From positions 1,054,001 through 1,118,000 of the forward strand of contig NZ_CP036402.1 of assembly GCF_004322855.1 (NCBI RefSeq): a DNA stretch of 64,000 nt, in the 5' to 3' direction. Under the pieces are notes generated by a model. That model was given only the letters and a program-made list of their open reading frames with translations. It made no database searches and was not told where the DNA came from. Positions 32,190 to 39,420 of this stretch are shown here, one piece after another (positions within the stretch are counted from its first letter, which is position 1; every line of letters begins with the position of its first letter). The stretch is from Egibacter rhizosphaerae (GTDB lineage: Bacteria > Actinomycetota > Nitriliruptoria > Euzebyales > Egibacteraceae). A program made the position numbers and the translations under genes.

Positions 32190-35100
32190 TCAGCCGGCGG
32201 CGACCTGCTCGTCCATTCGCTGGCTGATCACCTGCGAGACGCCATTGCCGTCCATCGTCACCCCGTAGAGGAGATCAGCGGCCTCCATGGTGCGCTTCTG
32301 GTGGGTCACGATGATCAGCTGGCTGGTCTCGCGGAAATCCCCGACCACCTCCAGGAAGCGCTGGAGGTTGACGTCGTCGAGGGCCGCCTCGACCTCGTCG
32401 AGCACGTAGAACGGTGAGGGCCGGGCGCGGAAGATCGCGAAGAGGATGGCGATCGCGGTCAGGCTGCGCTCCCCGCCGGACAACAGGGACAGCCGCTTCA
32501 CCCGCTTGCCCGGAGGTCGCGCGACCACGTCGACGCCGCTCTCGAGCAGGTCGTCGGGGTCGGTCAGTTCCAGGTTCCCCTCGCCCCCGGGGAACAGGCG
32601 CGGGAAGAGCTCCTGGAAGGCCGCGTCGACGTCGGCGAACGCCTCCGCGAACACCGAGCGGATGCGCTCGTCGACCGCGGAGATGACCTTCTCGAGATCG
32701 CGCCGGGAACCGCGCACGTCCTCGATCTGCTCCGTGATGAACGCGTAGCGGTCCGACAGCTGCTGGTACTCCTGCAGCGCCAACGGATTCACGGCACCCA
32801 GCAGCGCGAGCCGCTGCTCGAGCTCCTTCTCCTCATCGGCCAACTCGGCATCCCGCGCCTCGCCGCCCTCGAGAACCGGCGGGCGGCCCGGCTCGTCAGC
32901 AACCGGCTCGCCATCGTCCCCGGGGGTGCGCTCGGGGTCGTCGTCCCCGGAGGTGTGCTCGGGGTCGTCGTCCCCGGAGCGCTCCCCCGATCCGGCAGAG
33001 CCCGCGGCCTCCCCGGAGGCCTCCCCGTCAGCATCCTCATCGGTTGCACGCACCGGGCCGGCTCCGCTCACGTCCCCGGCCGACTGCGAACCGGCCGGTT
33101 CGAGACGGGTCGCACCGTCGCGCGCAGCGGCGAGCGCAGCGTCCGGGTCGAGATCGAGCTCCTCGGCCATGCGAGTCCGCACCGCCGTGAGCTCGTGCTC
33201 GAGCTGTTGGCGCGCGAGCTGCTCGGCGTGCTGGGTGTCCCGCAACTCTGAGAGGCGCCCCTCGGCATCGCGGACCCGCGCACGCACCACCCCGAGCTCG
33301 CGTTGCCGGGCCGCGCGACGTTCCTCGACCTCGTCGCGGGCCGTGGCGGCCTCTTGCAACGACGCCTCCGTCCGGGTGTAGGAGGCTTCGGCGACCGCGA
33401 GAAGCTCGGCGCACCGTTGGATCGCCGCGAGCCGCTCATCGCGTCGCCGCTCCCGTTCGACGAGCTGGGCCTCGACCTCGTCGGCCTCCCGTTCGAGCGC
33501 CTCGACCTGCCGGGCGACCTCGTCGTGGCGCTGCTCGGCGGTGCTGGCCCGCAGGCGAGCCTGCACCTCGGCGTCCCGGGCCTTGGCGAGCTCGTCGTCG
33601 AGCCGCTCGGCCTCGAGGTCCGGGGTGTCCTCGTCCTCCTCGTCGTCGGGGCCCTCGGGCTCGTCGCCGCCACGGGCCTCCAGCGTCGCCAGTCGCTCGC
33701 GTTGCTGCGCGATCTCGGCCCCGAGGTCGTCCGCCTGCTGACGTCGTGTGACCAGCTCCTCCTCGCACGCGGCCAGCTCCTTGCGCAGACGGCCGAGGCG
33801 CTCGGCGGCGCTCGTGATGCCGGCATCCGACTCCTGCATGGCGGCCGTCGCGGCGTCGAGCTCGTGGCGGGCCGTCTGCAGCTCCCGCTCGGCATCACCG
33901 ACACGGCGGCGCGCTCGGAGGAGCTCGTCGTCCACCGCGTCGCGCTCCGCCTCGGCCTGCTCGGCGGCCGCCCGGGAGAGGACGGCACTCGACGGTCCGG
34001 CCGAACCCCCCGCGTACCCACGGGGCCCCGCCAGCTCACCCGCTGGCGTCACGAACGCGTGACGGGGGTGCGCCGCCGCGAGCCGTGCCGCGGTGTCGTG
34101 ATCGGCGACCAGCCAACAGGCCCCCAGCGCCCGGTCGAGCGCGGCCCGTACGTGCGGCTCGGCCTCGACCGCCTCGACGAGCCGTCTGGCGCCGGCTCGC
34201 GCCATCGCGTCCGCCTCTCCGGCGGACGCCTCGTCCCCCTCGGCGTCGGCGGCATCGGCCGTGTCGTCGGCGGCATCGGCCGTGTCGTCGGCGTCGTCGG
34301 GCGTGTCGGAGTCGGCCGGGTCGGCGGCGAGCAGCAGAACCCGTCCGCACTCGTTTGCCCGCACGTACGCCACGGCCTCCCGGGCCGCGGTGTGGGACTC
34401 GACGACGAGGGCGTCACCGAGCGGGCCGAGTGCCGCGGCGAGCGCGGTGGCGCACCCGTCGGCGACGCGGATCTCCTCGGCCAGAGGCCCTCGGATCCCC
34501 GCCAGCTCTCCCGCATCCACAGCCTCCAGGAGCGCCGCGGCCCCGCCGGTCGCCTCCTGGCCGGCCGCCCGCAGCGCGTCGGCACGAGCGTCGAGGCTGG
34601 CCCGCCGGCGCTCGAGGTCGCGCTCGGCCTTCGCGGCCTCGCTCGCGGCCTGCTCCTTGCGCTGGGCGGTCTGCTCGGCCTCCTCGAGCCGCGCGGCCAC
34701 GTCTCCGGACTCCGCGTCCAGCCGTTGGATCTCGGCCTGCACCGCCTCGACATCGCGGGTCAGCTGCTCGCGGCGCGCCTCCAGCCCCGACACCTGGCTC
34801 TGGAGGCGCCCTTCCTCGCTGGTGGCCTGCGCCAGTGACGACCGCAGGGCGCTCAGCTCACCCTCCCAGCGGATGCGCCGCTCGCGGGCCTCCGCGCGAC
34901 GGCGGGCCTCCGCCACGGCGGCCTGCTCGTGGGCCCGGCGCGCGCGCTCGGCCTCGGCACGCTGCGACTCCGTGCGCTCGAGGGCGTCGCGGCACCCGGT
35001 CATCTCGTTCGCGAGCTCCCCGAGCCGCTCCCGGGCCTCCGCCGCCTCCGCCCGCAACTGCGCGGGGTCCCGCCCGGCGACCGGCTCCTCCACGGCCTCG

Positions 35101-36044
35101 GTGAGGCCGGTGCGGCGCTCCTCGATACGCTCCCGCAGCCCGCGGAGCCGCTCGACGAGCGTCGACAGCCGGAAGTGCGTGCGCTGAACCTCCTCGGCTT
35201 CGGGAGCGAGCGCTTCGAGGGCCTGCTCGATCTCGCGTTCTCGGGCCCGCTCGGCGTCCACCTCGGCGCTGACCTCGGCCACGCGCTCGGTGGAGGCCTC
35301 ACCCGTCGACCGCTCATCGGCGAGTCGCCGGTCGAGGTGGTCGAGCTCGCGCGCGGCCCGTACGCGGCGCACCTCTGCGAGCTCGGCCGAGAGGCGCGCG
35401 TGGGTCCGTGCTGCCTCCGCCTGTCGTTCCAGTGGCTTGAGTTGGCGTCGGAGTTCCTTGACGACGTCCTGCAGCCGTTCGAGATGACCGTCCAGCTGCG
35501 CGAGCTTGCGGAGGCTGCGCTCCTTGCGGCGGCGGTGCTTGAGGATGCCCGCAGCCTCCTCGATGAAGGACCGTCGCTCCTCGGGCTTGCAGTTGAGGAC
35601 CGCCTCGAGCTGCCCCTGGTTCACGATCGAGTGGGCATCCCGACCGAGGCCGGTGTCGCTCAGGAGTTCTGCGACGTCGAGCGCGCGGCAGGACTCGCCG
35701 TTGACGGCGTACTCGTTCTCGCCGCTCGCGAACATGGAGCGACTGACGGTGACCTCGCTGAAGTCGATCGGCAGGGTGCCGCTCGCGTTGTCGATCGTGA
35801 TCTCGACAGCCGCCCGCCCCAGGCCCCGCCGCTGGGGGCTCCCGGCGAAGATCACGTCACTCATCTGGCCACCGCGCAACGCCTTCGCGCTGTGACTGCC
35901 CAGCACCCAGGTGAGCGCATCGACGACGTTTGACTTGCCCGATCCGTTGGGGCCGACGACGACCGTGATCCCGGGCTCGAAGTCGAGCCGCGTCTTGTCC
36001 GCGAACGACTTGAAGCCTCGCAGAGTGAGCGACGTGAGGTGCAC
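32190..36044 (-). CDS. smc: Chromosome segregation protein SMC, with two acidic insertions
   Basis: SMC is the condensin ATPase. Walker A GPNGSGKSNVVDALTWVLG is at 31-49, followed by the Q-loop region NQGQLEAVLNCKPEERRS. Two long coiled coils flank a hinge, and the C-terminal head carries the signature LSLLSGGERSLTAIAILF and Walker B FYVLDEVEAALD. The GTG at 36044 gives the family start HLTSLTLRGFKSFADKTRLD; 1284 residues is about 100 longer than usual. The excess is an Asp/Ala-rich insert in the hinge (about 573-610) and a Gly/Asp/Ser/Glu-rich insert in the C-terminal coiled coil near the head (about 978-1060). Both are encoded by in-frame tandem DNA repeats. Confidence 0.97.
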   Translation of the reverse strand: MHLTSLTLRGFKSFADKTRLDFEPGITVVVGPNGSGKSNVVDALTWVLGSHSAKALRGGQMSDVIFAGSPQRRGLGRAAVEITIDNASGTLPIDFSEVTVSRSMFASGENEYAVNGESCRALDVAELLSDTGLGRDAHSIVNQGQLEAVLNCKPEERRSFIEEAAGILKHRRRKERSLRKLAQLDGHLERLQDVVKELRRQLKPLERQAEAARTHARLSAELAEVRRVRAARELDHLDRRLADERSTGEASTERVAEVSAEVDAERAREREIEQALEALAPEAEEVQRTHFRLSTLVERLRGLRERIEERRTGLTEAVEEPVAGRDPAQLRAEAAEARERLGELANEMTGCRDALERTESQRAEAERARRAHEQAAVAEARRRAEARERRIRWEGELSALRSSLAQATSEEGRLQSQVSGLEARREQLTRDVEAVQAEIQRLDAESGDVAARLEEAEQTAQRKEQAASEAAKAERDLERRRASLDARADALRAAGQEATGGAAALLEAVDAGELAGIRGPLAEEIRVADGCATALAAALGPLGDALVVESHTAAREAVAYVRANECGRVLLLAADPADSDTPDDADDTADAADDTADAADAEGDEASAGEADAMARAGARRLVEAVEAEPHVRAALDRALGACWLVADHDTAARLAAAHPRHAFVTPAGELAGPRGYAGGSAGPSSAVLSRAAAEQAEAERDAVDDELLRARRRVGDAERELQTARHELDAATAAMQESDAGITSAAERLGRLRKELAACEEELVTRRQQADDLGAEIAQQRERLATLEARGGDEPEGPDDEEDEDTPDLEAERLDDELAKARDAEVQARLRASTAEQRHDEVARQVEALEREADEVEAQLVERERRRDERLAAIQRCAELLAVAEASYTRTEASLQEAATARDEVEERRAARQRELGVVRARVRDAEGRLSELRDTQHAEQLARQQLEHELTAVRTRMAEELDLDPDAALAAARDGATRLEPAGSQSAGDVSGAGPVRATDEDADGEASGEAAGSAGSGERSGDDDPEHTSGDDDPERTPGDDGEPVADEPGRPPVLEGGEARDAELADEEKELEQRLALLGAVNPLALQEYQQLSDRYAFITEQIEDVRGSRRDLEKVISAVDERIRSVFAEAFADVDAAFQELFPRLFPGGEGNLELTDPDDLLESGVDVVARPPGKRVKRLSLLSGGERSLTAIAILFAIFRARPSPFYVLDEVEAALDDVNLQRFLEVVGDFRETSQLIIVTHQKRTMEAADLLYGVTMDGNGVSQVISQRMDEQVAAG

Positions 36045-36489: not shown

Positions 36490-36818
36490 GCGGGGGTCCT
36501 CCTACGATCTCGCGCGGGTCGCGCGCGGTAGCCTCGTCTTGACTGCGGTGTTCAGGCCTTCACCAGCCGGACGGCCGGCGGGTGACCGCGGATCCGTCCA
36601 CGGGGCCCGATGGGTCGCACGACGCTCGGCGACCGGTCGGTTCCGTCCTCGTCGCCTCGGACGTGCTCCTGGACACGCGGTGCGTGCCCCAGCGTTGCGG
36701 AACGCGACTCGACCGGGCAGCGTCGTGCGGCACGGTCGATGGGCGGCTCGCCGACCGTGCGGGATCACCGCACGCACGAAAGCCGCGCGTTCACGAGCGC
36801 ACTATACCGGGAGGCCGA
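36490..36818. other. Intergenic region between divergent genes
   Basis: This 329-bp gap separates the coiled-coil protein from the hydrolase. I see only a TATACC box at 36803-36808 just before the hydrolase start and short overlapping frames with no family resemblance; no RNA gene or repeat is recognisable. Confidence 0.5.
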
Positions 36819-37856
36819 ATGTTGCCGCAAGATCACGGTCGACCCACCCAGCGAACCCGCCGAGTGCTGCGCGGGATGCGCCGCGGCATCGGGCTCGGGG
36901 TGGGTGGCGCACTGGTCGGCGGCTACATCGTCGCCTCGCGACCTCGACCGCCTACCGCCTCCCGGGGAGTGGCCGAACCCCCACCGGGGCTGCCGCCCGG
37001 CCGCACCCTCGCGCTGCCCGGGCGCGGGGAGATGTTCCTGCGAGAGACGCCGGCGCCCTCCCGGGATGCGCCGACGCTCGCGCTCCTGCACGGATGGATG
37101 TTCCCGTCCGACCTGCACTGGGCCGCCGTCGCCCCGGGGCTCGCGCGCCGGGCTCGGCTCGTGATCCCCGACCACCGGGGTCATGGCCGCGGATCGCGAC
37201 CGGCCGCACCCTTCCGCCTCACCGACGTCGCCGACGACGTGGCCGCGCTCCTGCGCCGTCTCGATACCGGCCCCGCCATCCTCGTGGGCTACTCCATGGG
37301 TGGGGCGATCGCGATGCACACCTGGCAGCGCCACCCCGACGTCGTGCGCGGCCTCGTGCTCTGTGCGACGAGCTCCAACTACGCCGACTCGCCCGCCTAC
37401 CGCCTCGTGTGGCGGTCCATGGGCGGGCTGCAACTCCTGCTGCGCCTCCTGCCCCGACACCAGCTCGAATCGCTGCTGCTCGCCCGCGCGGAGGGTCGGC
37501 TGCCGATCCCCATCACCCGCATGATCCACCAAGAGACGCCCCGCGAGGTGGTCCAGCGCCTCCCCTGGCTCGTCGGTGAGTTCGACCGGGGCAGCGCCGA
37601 CGATGTGGCCGAGGCCGGTCGGGAACTCGGCCGGTTCGACGGCCGCGGCTGGATCCCCACCATCGACGTGCCCACCGGCGTCGTGGTGACGAGCCAGGAC
37701 CGCCTGGTGCCACCGAACTGGCAGTACGGCCTGGCCGCGCTCCTCCCGGGAGCGCCCGTCCGTACGATCCACGCCGATCACGATGCCGTCATCGCCGCCC
37801 CCGGCATTCTCGAGGAGGCGATCAGCGGTCTCGTGACCGACCTGGGGCTGGGATAG
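36819..37856 (+). CDS. Alpha/beta-hydrolase fold protein, membrane- or export-associated
   Basis: A serine hydrolase of the alpha/beta fold: oxyanion motif LLHGWMFPSDLHW, DHRGHGRGSRP, nucleophile elbow GYSMGGAIAMH, Asp in VVVTSQDRLVPP and His in IHADHDAVIAAP. Before the domain there is a basic segment and a hydrophobic helix (GIGLGVGGALVGGYIVAS, about residues 26-43), suggesting a membrane anchor or signal. I use the ATG at 36819 (345 residues); GGGAGG is only 4 nt upstream, so the adjacent TTG may also serve. The substrate is unknown. Confidence 0.85.
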   Translation: MLPQDHGRPTQRTRRVLRGMRRGIGLGVGGALVGGYIVASRPRPPTASRGVAEPPPGLPPGRTLALPGRGEMFLRETPAPSRDAPTLALLHGWMFPSDLHWAAVAPGLARRARLVIPDHRGHGRGSRPAAPFRLTDVADDVAALLRRLDTGPAILVGYSMGGAIAMHTWQRHPDVVRGLVLCATSSNYADSPAYRLVWRSMGGLQLLLRLLPRHQLESLLLARAEGRLPIPITRMIHQETPREVVQRLPWLVGEFDRGSADDVAEAGRELGRFDGRGWIPTIDVPTGVVVTSQDRLVPPNWQYGLAALLPGAPVRTIHADHDAVIAAPGILEEAISGLVTDLGLG

Positions 37857-37891: not shown

Positions 37892-38722
37892 TCAGGTCTG
37901 GCAGGACGGGCAGTGGTACATGGGGTGACCGTCCACCTCGTCCCGATGGATCGGCCGGCGGCACCGGGGGCACGGCTGAGCCGCACGCCCGTGGACCTTG
38001 ATGTGCGCGGCCGGCGGCTCGTCCTCGTCGAGCTCGTCCCCCTCGGGCTCCTGGCCCCCGGAGCCCCCCTGCTTGACCGCTTCGTAGAGGACCTCGAACA
38101 GCGCTCGGTGCAGCCGACGCACCTCCTGGCTCGACAGGTGGTTCGAGGTCCGGGCACCATCGAGCCCTGCTGCCCACAGCACCTCGTCGCTGTAGCGGTC
38201 ACCCAGACCGATGACGAACGTCTCGTCCCGCAGCAGCAGCGCGAGCTCTCGGCGGCGTGCGGCGAGATAGCTCCCGAAGGCGTGCCACGTGAACGTGTTG
38301 GCCAGCGGATCCACCCCGGTGGGAGTGAGCTCACCGATCCCGTCGAGGCTGGCGGTCTCGACGACGAACAACTCGGCCGCATCGTCGGGATCGGCGACGT
38401 GCAGGGCTCCCCCCGTCGTGAACCAGATACGGGCCCGGACGTGGCCGGCCGGGTCCGCGTTCGCGGTCTCCCGGGTGATCCAGCCGGTCGGACCGAGGCC
38501 GACGACGAGCGCTTGTCCCTCGTCCAGCTCGCAGACGATCCGCACGCCCCGCCGTACGACCGACGCGATCTTGCGCCCCGTCAGAGCACGGACGAACTCC
38601 GGGCGGTTCCGGTGGCGCTGCACGAGCCGGGTCGCACCGACCTCCACGTCCTTGACGCGCTTGCCCACGACCTCCTTCTCGAGCTCCTTGCGCAGGACCT
38701 CCGCCTCGGGCAGCTGCGTCAC
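37892..38722 (-). CDS. Fpg/Nei family DNA glycosylase homologue lacking catalytic residues
   Basis: Full-length Fpg/Nei fold (276 residues), in the usual place after rnc. True Fpg begins M-P-E-L-P-E: Pro2 is the Schiff-base nucleophile and Glu3 the acid. Here the start is fixed by a GTGA overlap with rnc and reads M-T-Q-L-P-E-A-E, so both are replaced. The catalytic Lys of RGK is Val (RRGVRIVCEL), the Met finger motif GMSG is GPTG, and GLGN is GLGD (VIGLGDRYSDEVLWAAGL). The zinc finger keeps its four Cys (CPRC and CPSC) but the DNA-contacting Arg is changed. It is likely a DNA-binding relative rather than an 8-oxoG glycosylase. Confidence 0.85.
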   Translation of the reverse strand: MTQLPEAEVLRKELEKEVVGKRVKDVEVGATRLVQRHRNRPEFVRALTGRKIASVVRRGVRIVCELDEGQALVVGLGPTGWITRETANADPAGHVRARIWFTTGGALHVADPDDAAELFVVETASLDGIGELTPTGVDPLANTFTWHAFGSYLAARRRELALLLRDETFVIGLGDRYSDEVLWAAGLDGARTSNHLSSQEVRRLHRALFEVLYEAVKQGGSGGQEPEGDELDEDEPPAAHIKVHGRAAQPCPRCRRPIHRDEVDGHPMYHCPSCQT

Positions 38723-39420
38723 GCCTCCCCCTCCGCTCCACGCTCGCTCAGGGCTCCGAGCGCGACCTGGGCCGCTTGCTGCTCGGCCTCCTTCTTGCTC
38801 CGCCCGATGCCCTCACCGAGCAGCTCATCGTCGATGTACACCGCTGCGGTGAACTGCTTCTGATGATCCGGGCCGTCCTCGCTGAGCCGGTACACCGGCA
38901 ACGTGTGCTGGAGTGCGGCCACACGCTCCTGCAGCGAGGTCTTGAAGTCGAACAAGGTGGAGCTGTGCAGGATCTCGTCGAGGCGGTCGTCGAGCAGGCG
39001 CCGGACGAGCGCGGTCGCCGCGTCGATGCCGGCATCGAGGTAGGCCGCCCCGATTATCGCCTCGAGCGTGTCCGCGAGGATGGAGTCCTTGTCCCTGCCA
39101 CCGGACTGCTCCTCGCCCCGACCCAGCCGAACCTGCGCACCGACACCGAGGTCGCGCGCGACCGCCGCCAGGGTCAGAGTGTTCACCGCGGCCGCCCGCG
39201 CCTTGGCCAAGCGGCCCTCGGGCGAGTCCGGGCTCTGGTGGAAGATGCGATCGGTGACCACGAGCCCGAGAACCGCGTCGCCGAGGAACTCGAGACGTTC
39301 GTTGGTCGGCTCGCCGCCGGCCTCGAAGGCCCAGCTACGGTGCGCGAGCGCCAGGTCGAGCAGGGACGGGTCGGCGAACCGGTAGCCGAGGGCCCGCTGT
39401 AGGGTCTCCGGATCGGCCAC
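38719..39420 (-). CDS. rnc: Ribonuclease III
   Basis: RNase III cuts double-stranded RNA and matures rRNA. It shows the signature ERLEFLGDAVLGLVVTD (residues about 44-60), KDSILADTLEAIIGAAYLDA with the second acidic metal ligands, and a C-terminal dsRBD (FTAAVYIDDELLGEGIGRSK, KKEAEQQAAQVAL). I use the GTG at 39420 (233 residues; AAGGAG 8 nt upstream); the upstream open frame overlaps rpmF. Its stop is coupled to the Fpg-like gene. Confidence 0.96.
   Translation of the reverse strand: MADPETLQRALGYRFADPSLLDLALAHRSWAFEAGGEPTNERLEFLGDAVLGLVVTDRIFHQSPDSPEGRLAKARAAAVNTLTLAAVARDLGVGAQVRLGRGEEQSGGRDKDSILADTLEAIIGAAYLDAGIDAATALVRRLLDDRLDEILHSSTLFDFKTSLQERVAALQHTLPVYRLSEDGPDHQKQFTAAVYIDDELLGEGIGRSKKEAEQQAAQVALGALSERGAEGEA

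Follow-up and report, generated by a model that had tools for sequence, protein, structure and literature searches.

The rnc-linked fpg gene of early-branching Actinomycetota has probably become an ancient pseudoenzyme, freed by the presence of a second Fpg and kept for a non-catalytic, most probably protein-binding, role; this reading comes from the comparison of a gene of Egibacter rhizosphaerae, located in a stretch of 64,000 nucleotides (the window), with its counterparts in related genomes. Its firm part is the pseudoenzyme status, and the binding partner is a guess. The product of this gene, here called pseudo-Fpg, would thus be a conserved pseudoenzyme of the Fpg/Nei superfamily, in agreement with the loss of catalytic residues throughout the clade and with purifying selection acting on the protein.

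Gene context, N-terminus and lost key sites

The features discussed below, in window coordinates, are the following:
32190–36044, (-): smc, which follows pseudo-fpg on the same strand (start picked by eye)
36582–37856, (+): alpha/beta-hydrolase-like ORF between pseudo-fpg and smc (family name from reading the sequence)
37892–38722, (-): pseudo-Fpg, the rnc-linked Fpg/MutM homologue of 276 residues (ORF, domain matches and model)
37901–37972, (-): zinc finger with C251, C254, C271 and C274, in which H266 replaces the DNA-binding Arg
38003–38062, (-): acidic linker (residues 221–240, disordered at 223–235) at the position of the lesion-recognition loop (model)
38072–38131, (-): modelled helix 198–217, which is the best conserved of the remaining surface candidates (model and alignment)
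38198–38200, (-): D175, at the site of the conserved H2TH Asn (N174 of MutM)
38378–38386, (-): D113 and A115, at the sites of the recognition-triad Arg and Phe (R112 and F114 of MutM; PDB titles R112A, F114A)
38489–38491, (-): P78, where MutM has its intercalating Met, M77 (role from PDB titles, M77A)
38543–38545, (-): V60, at the site of the active-site, phosphate-contacting Lys (alignment)
38714–38722, (-): N-terminus M1-T2-Q3 in place of M-P-E, its GTG start codon being part of the GTGA shared with rnc
38719–39420, (-): rnc (RNase III), directly 5′ of pseudo-Fpg, whose start overlaps the rnc stop

The initial annotation had set the start by the overlap with rnc, and both the GTGA shared by the start codon of pseudo-Fpg and the stop codon of rnc, which gives an N-terminus of M-T-Q-L-P-E, and the upstream stops of its relatives agree with this assignment. 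In 8 of the 57 class orthologues an in-frame stop is located 1–11 codons 5′ of the start (immediately 5′ in two of them) with no start codon between, and all eight begin with M-[TSL]-x-LPE, so the N-terminus cannot be put down to faulty annotation. An upstream start giving MPEL, which would have overturned the initial reading, was looked for and is ruled out by these stops, and the probability of a wrong start or annotation artefact, with the real N-terminus elsewhere, is negligible, as nothing in its favour was found and key sites far from the N-terminus are lost too.

The rnc gene is directly upstream on the same strand in all 58 class loci and adjoins 78 of the best 80 of 415 relatives recovered in a contig scan (the upstream flank of the other two being shorter than 170 bases), and it is found beside none of 12 canonical Fpg copies, for which flanks of 0.5–1.7 kb were inspected. 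Downstream, smc was detected in 24 of 58 class loci and in 61 of the same best 80 of 415, many of the others having short flanks. In the available part of PMC2734929, fpg1 of Mycobacterium tuberculosis (Rv2924c) is also a neighbour of rnc; from the rnc linkage of the class loci together with this shared neighbour, it follows that pseudo-Fpg is the positional heir of actinobacterial fpg. Homologues of the hydrolase-like ORF adjoin pseudo-fpg in relatives of the same order (18 of 58 class loci) and were not seen beside it in one family (f4), where smc follows. The middle part of SMC in the window carries an Asp/Ala-rich repeated stretch (DDTADAADDTADAADAEGDE) at about 34085–34350.

Homology and fold (Fapy_DNA_glyco plus H2TH; a β-sandwich plus a helical domain) place the window protein in the Fpg/Nei superfamily, with Pfam matches to Fapy_DNA_glyco (3.8e-20) and H2TH (5e-20), a zf-FPG score of 18.2 bits that is under the cut-off of 21.3, and MutM from Thermus and Geobacillus as the nearest solved relatives by sequence. 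The fpg equivalog model of NCBIfam, TIGR00577, gives 175.7 bits versus a cut-off of 203.3, which is not reached. The four zinc cysteines are present, and none of ten key Fpg sites is retained: the nucleophile Pro2 and the acid Glu3 are T2 and Q3, the Lys of the RRGK motif is V60, the His is G75, the recognition triad Met/Arg/Phe is P78, D113 and A115, the Gln is E167, the H2TH Asn is D175 and the zinc-finger Arg is H266. The changes of Lys, Met and Asn noted in the initial annotation (V60, P78 and D175) are thus borne out, and they extend to the Arg and Phe of the triad and to the zinc-finger Arg. Titles of PDB entries (M77A, R112A, F114A, N174C and 'Catalytically inactive (E3Q)') link the lost sites to recognition and catalysis by MutM, and the roles of the Pro1–Glu2 dyad in Fpg are described in the available part of PMC5422863.

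Conservation across the class and comparison with active relatives

Of the 61 genomes searched (the own genome and 60 relatives), 58 contain an orthologue, defined by an E value below 1e-50. Completeness is 59, 78 and 89% in the three that lack it, and every one of the 34 class genomes with a completeness of 90% or more has it. The named members of the group (Egibacter, Nitriliruptorales, Nitriliruptoraceae and Euzebyales/Euzebyaceae) identify the class as Nitriliruptoria. A contig scan with the single protein returned no relatives, and the scan with alignment A1 returned 415, of which the best 80 were taken; 40 of these best 80 fall in the class group, at least partly as repeat assemblies, and were kept out of the class counts. 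Rows L033 (motif LPD, unparsed), L131 (5′ end cut) and L001/L002 (duplicates) were dropped, alignment A1 leaves out L030 and L065 (short), A2 leaves out L070 (long insert), and L023, L030 and L065, whose C-terminus is incomplete, count as gaps in the residue table.

In the 57 orthologues, position 2 is L in 27, T in 23, S in 5, M in 1 and P in 1 (L061), and position 3 is E in 30, Q in 15, Y in 5, H in 3, L in 3 and N in 1; the T2-Q3 pair of the window protein is therefore not conserved in the group. At the other sites, the Lys is found in 3 of the 57, the Asn in 2, the zinc-finger Arg in 2, and the Met, Arg and Phe of the triad in 0, 0 and 0, respectively, and E6 is invariant (57/57). When ten sites were scored (P2, E3, K60, H75, M78, R113, F115, Q167, N175 and R266), canonical Fpg copies kept 9–10 (12/12 rows), intact rnc-linked Fpg 9–10 (18/18), a group lacking Pro2 (no-P2) 9 (14/14), an intermediate group (inter) 2–4 (7/7) and the class 0–2 (57/57), the 40 class-group rows of the contig scan likewise keeping 0–2, and no row scored 5–8. 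On this tally, the key residues appear to have been lost together, all at once. Eighteen columns that are at least 93% conserved in the 32 active and no-P2 rows are retained in less than 15% of the 57 class rows, including K60, Y61, H75, M78, S79, R113, F115, Q167, N175, R266 and residues of the recognition loop, and 42 other equally conserved columns are retained at 90% or more in the class; most of the lost columns belong to DNA contacts or to the recognition loop.

Two further groups of rnc-linked copies were distinguished in this comparison. The inter group (L109, L116, L124, L140, L143, L145 and L148, the last with an ambiguous start) is a half-degenerate sister in which most DNA-contact sites are gone and most rows keep Pro2; position 2 alone does not track activity, because Pro2 persists there despite the other losses, and P2 is ruled out as an activity marker, since most inter rows and L061 keep it and are otherwise mostly degenerate. 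In the no-P2 group, from a neighbouring class of Actinomycetota MAGs (L103, L106, L119, L122, L127, L130, L134–L137, L141, L144, L153 and L157; also L188–L213), the rnc-linked Fpg begins with M-E-L-P-E, the initiator Met (GTG or ATG) replacing the missing Pro codon, and this form was detected in 26 of 27 genomes in the class of one member. In 6 of these 26 loci (L188, L190, L191, L194, L197 and L212) the codon just before the start is an in-frame stop, which makes an upstream start impossible in these six. The no-P2 Fpg might possibly use the amine of Met1 as the nucleophile.

A different chemistry, suggested in the initial annotation, would have the amine of Thr2 or Ser2, once Met is removed, act as the nucleophile on another lesion or substrate. 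Thr and Ser normally allow removal of a preceding initiator Met, and one or the other occupies position 2 in 28 of the 57 orthologues, the window protein included; nevertheless, removal is not expected in Met-Leu N-termini, so that Met should remain in the 27 orthologues with Leu2, nearly half of the group, and position 3 is variable. In addition, comparison of the columns in the 57 class rows revealed no new invariant, catalytic-looking residue set in place of the lost sites, among them the Lys, Asn and Arg, and this altered chemistry is accordingly very improbable.

Selection on the gene points in the same direction as its retention. The dN/dS values are 0.08–0.26 (20 close pairs), 25 columns are invariant in the 55 rows of alignment A1, and pseudo-Fpg persists even in genomes of 1.7–2.1 Mb, one of them without a canonical Fpg. 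These dN/dS values and the presence in every one of the most complete class genomes rule out decay, in agreement with the earlier statement that the gene is intact and in its normal operon, and the class-wide nature of the change rules out chance divergence in one genome. A relic heading for loss and held for now by its operon position would be consistent with the fast change at the former active-site columns and with the overlap with rnc, as a result of which removal might be polar, but this same retention and constraint make it scarcely credible.

The second, canonical Fpg and a proposed order of events

The source genome (4.64 Mb, single contig) contains four Fpg/Nei loci, and a canonical Fpg with Pro2, whose presence elsewhere in the genome the initial annotation had left to be checked, was found at C1:188040-188876; it begins with MPELPEVESVRR, has all key sites, is 34% identical to the window protein and has no rnc found in its flanks. 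Two more Fpg/Nei homologues are located at C1:3759459 and C1:1332201, and the possibility of a genome without a real Fpg is thereby ruled out. The A2 profile, at 320 bits or more, detects a second, canonical-type Fpg in 33 of the 34 most complete class genomes (at least 90%) and in all 7 inter genomes, that of G080 being in pieces. Of the 19 genomes whose rnc-linked copy is active or no-P2, none has it, and the profile matches that rnc-linked copy best. Active-site loss thus accompanies the possession of a second Fpg, probably through one inherited event rather than many independent ones. In one class genome (G022, 2.1 Mb, 96% complete) pseudo-Fpg is the sole Fpg/Nei match, which argues that it is not a mere appendage of the canonical enzyme. 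The copy of this genome (L064, G022:C3:85390-86196) has its first zinc Cys replaced, and smc starts about 5 bases further on.

The quick tree built on full columns (80 rows) recovered the class, the inter group and both together, each with an SH-aLRT of 99, beside the active and no-P2 rows and with the canonical copies apart (100). In the careful tree (48 rows, key columns removed), the inter, no-P2 and canonical rows each form one group, the clade of class plus inter is neither supported nor rejected (p-AU 0.295), and the very distant canonical outgroup is placed within the class rows, with an unstable root. This rooting, taken literally, would require active enzymes to regain ten canonical residues, and it is therefore read as long-branch attraction.

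A proposed order for the gain of the second Fpg and the loss of the active site is the following. The ancestor would have gained or kept a second Fpg (of the MPELPEVESVRR type), which would have taken over the repair of 8-oxoG and Fapy lesions; the rnc-linked copy might then have shed catalysis and its grip on DNA, being retained for a non-catalytic job that either existed before or was newly gained. This job may be protein binding, as a scaffold or regulator, through a conserved surface formed chiefly by helix 4–18 and helix 198–217, and the partner would probably belong to the rnc-smc neighbourhood (RNase III or SMC), because of the operon position and translational overlap, or else be a repair factor once met by Fpg.

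Fold, charge and candidate contact surface

The AlphaFold model of the window protein (pLDDT 90.3, pTM 0.85) has the full Fpg fold, with disorder confined to residues 223–235, the position of the lesion-recognition loop in active Fpg, and its best structural match is MutM 1r2y (TM 0.86, Z 31.2, 265 residues, 2.3 Å). The earlier statement that fold and zinc finger are kept therefore stands for the fold, and for the zinc finger in the window protein; across the group it does not, the first zinc Cys being replaced in 7 full-length orthologues (L052, L053, L057, L058, L062, L063 and L064), and also in a frame-broken MAG row (L030). Residues 221–240 have, across the class, a mean of 8.0 D/E versus 0.13 K/R per about 20 residues. 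The mean pI of rnc-linked proteins is 9.3 in active (n=17), 9.5 in no-P2 (n=14), 6.6 in inter (n=7) and 5.4 in class (n=55) rows, and 9.5 in canonical copies (n=12); the mean net charge is −10.8 in the class versus +9.0 in the active relatives.

These properties bear on a non-cutting reader of DNA, which would bind damaged or ordinary DNA and mark it, protect it or regulate transcription. The retention of the full fold with the H2TH domain and of the zinc cysteines in the window protein, the Lys or Arg present in 51 of 57 class orthologues at the site of K166 of the canonical copy, and the change of E3 to Q, the very variant of MutM crystallised as catalytically inactive (2f5q), which still binds DNA, would all fit such a reader; however, the phosphate-contacting Lys, His, Asn and Arg and the M/R/F triad are gone with no conserved basic replacements, the recognition loop has become an acidic linker, the net charge is reversed and part of the group lacks the first zinc ligand, so that this alternative is unlikely, though the most probable of the rivals considered. 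Binding in the manner of Fpg, suggested in the initial annotation, does not accord with the lost DNA contacts, the fall in pI or zinc ligands that are dispensable in part of the group. Canonical DNA binding by pseudo-Fpg is in consequence unlikely, and the protein would no longer excise bases, nor bind DNA as Fpg does.

The preferred reading, a pseudoenzyme that would act through contacts with other molecules, proteins being the likeliest, directs attention to what remains conserved. Helix 4–18 and helix 198–217, together with D138 and W146, are the best remaining candidates for a contact surface, as judged by alignment and secondary structure rather than by solvent exposure; helix 198–217 is fairly conserved across Fpg at large, and Thermus MutM has a similar stretch. 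Conservation at many columns of this candidate surface extends to the active rnc-linked subfamily but not to the canonical copy, consistent with a second function that predates the loss of catalysis. A more detailed scenario, advanced tentatively and clearly less secure than the preferred reading as a whole, is that the rnc-linked Fpg of early Actinobacteria had a second, non-catalytic function, as a surface for RNase III, SMC or another partner in chromosome or RNA processing, and that, after the second Fpg, it may have become a dedicated class-wide adaptor with neither chemistry nor DNA binding, outliving the canonical Fpg in a streamlined member.

Among characterized systems, pseudo-Fpg shares its whole-length fold with Fpg/MutM (Geobacillus MutM, M. 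tuberculosis Fpg1), and it differs from them in lacking Pro2-Glu3, the Lys, Asn and Arg, the M/R/F triad and the recognition loop, in being acidic and in scoring under the TIGR00577 cut-off. The non-proline residue at position 2 has a parallel in NEIL3, an active glycosylase with Val2 in place of Pro2 and acting as the nucleophile; unlike NEIL3, pseudo-Fpg has lost the rest of the active site too. The nearest relatives in sequence and gene order are the rnc-linked Fpg of Acidimicrobiia and related Actinomycetota (L097, L105, L110 and L112, among others), which share with pseudo-Fpg conserved stretches in both the N-terminal helix and helix 198–217, but have 9–10 of the ten key sites, a basic pI and, in the 19 genomes with active or no-P2 copies, no second Fpg. 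The canonical Fpg of the same genome belongs to the same superfamily, and differs by its intact key sites, low identity and gene context. Fpg2 of M. tuberculosis (Rv0944) resembles pseudo-Fpg in having no catalytic N-terminus and in coexisting with active paralogues. According to the available part of PMC2734929, Rv0944 is a truncated protein whose orthologues in M. smegmatis and M. avium are full-length, whereas pseudo-Fpg is full-length throughout the class. Open-access literature searches, at the level of abstracts, returned no description of this pseudo-Fpg group.

In summary, these data point to an enzyme turned non-enzyme and fixed across a whole bacterial class. Since the active sister, the half-degenerate sister and the likely replacement enzyme are all readable, each step from repair enzyme to non-enzyme is open to testing; and since Fpg models still match pseudo-Fpg genes, the repair inventories of the class may be over-counted. 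Identifying a partner would bring to light a role of Fpg outside repair, beside RNase III, which the active enzymes may have too.
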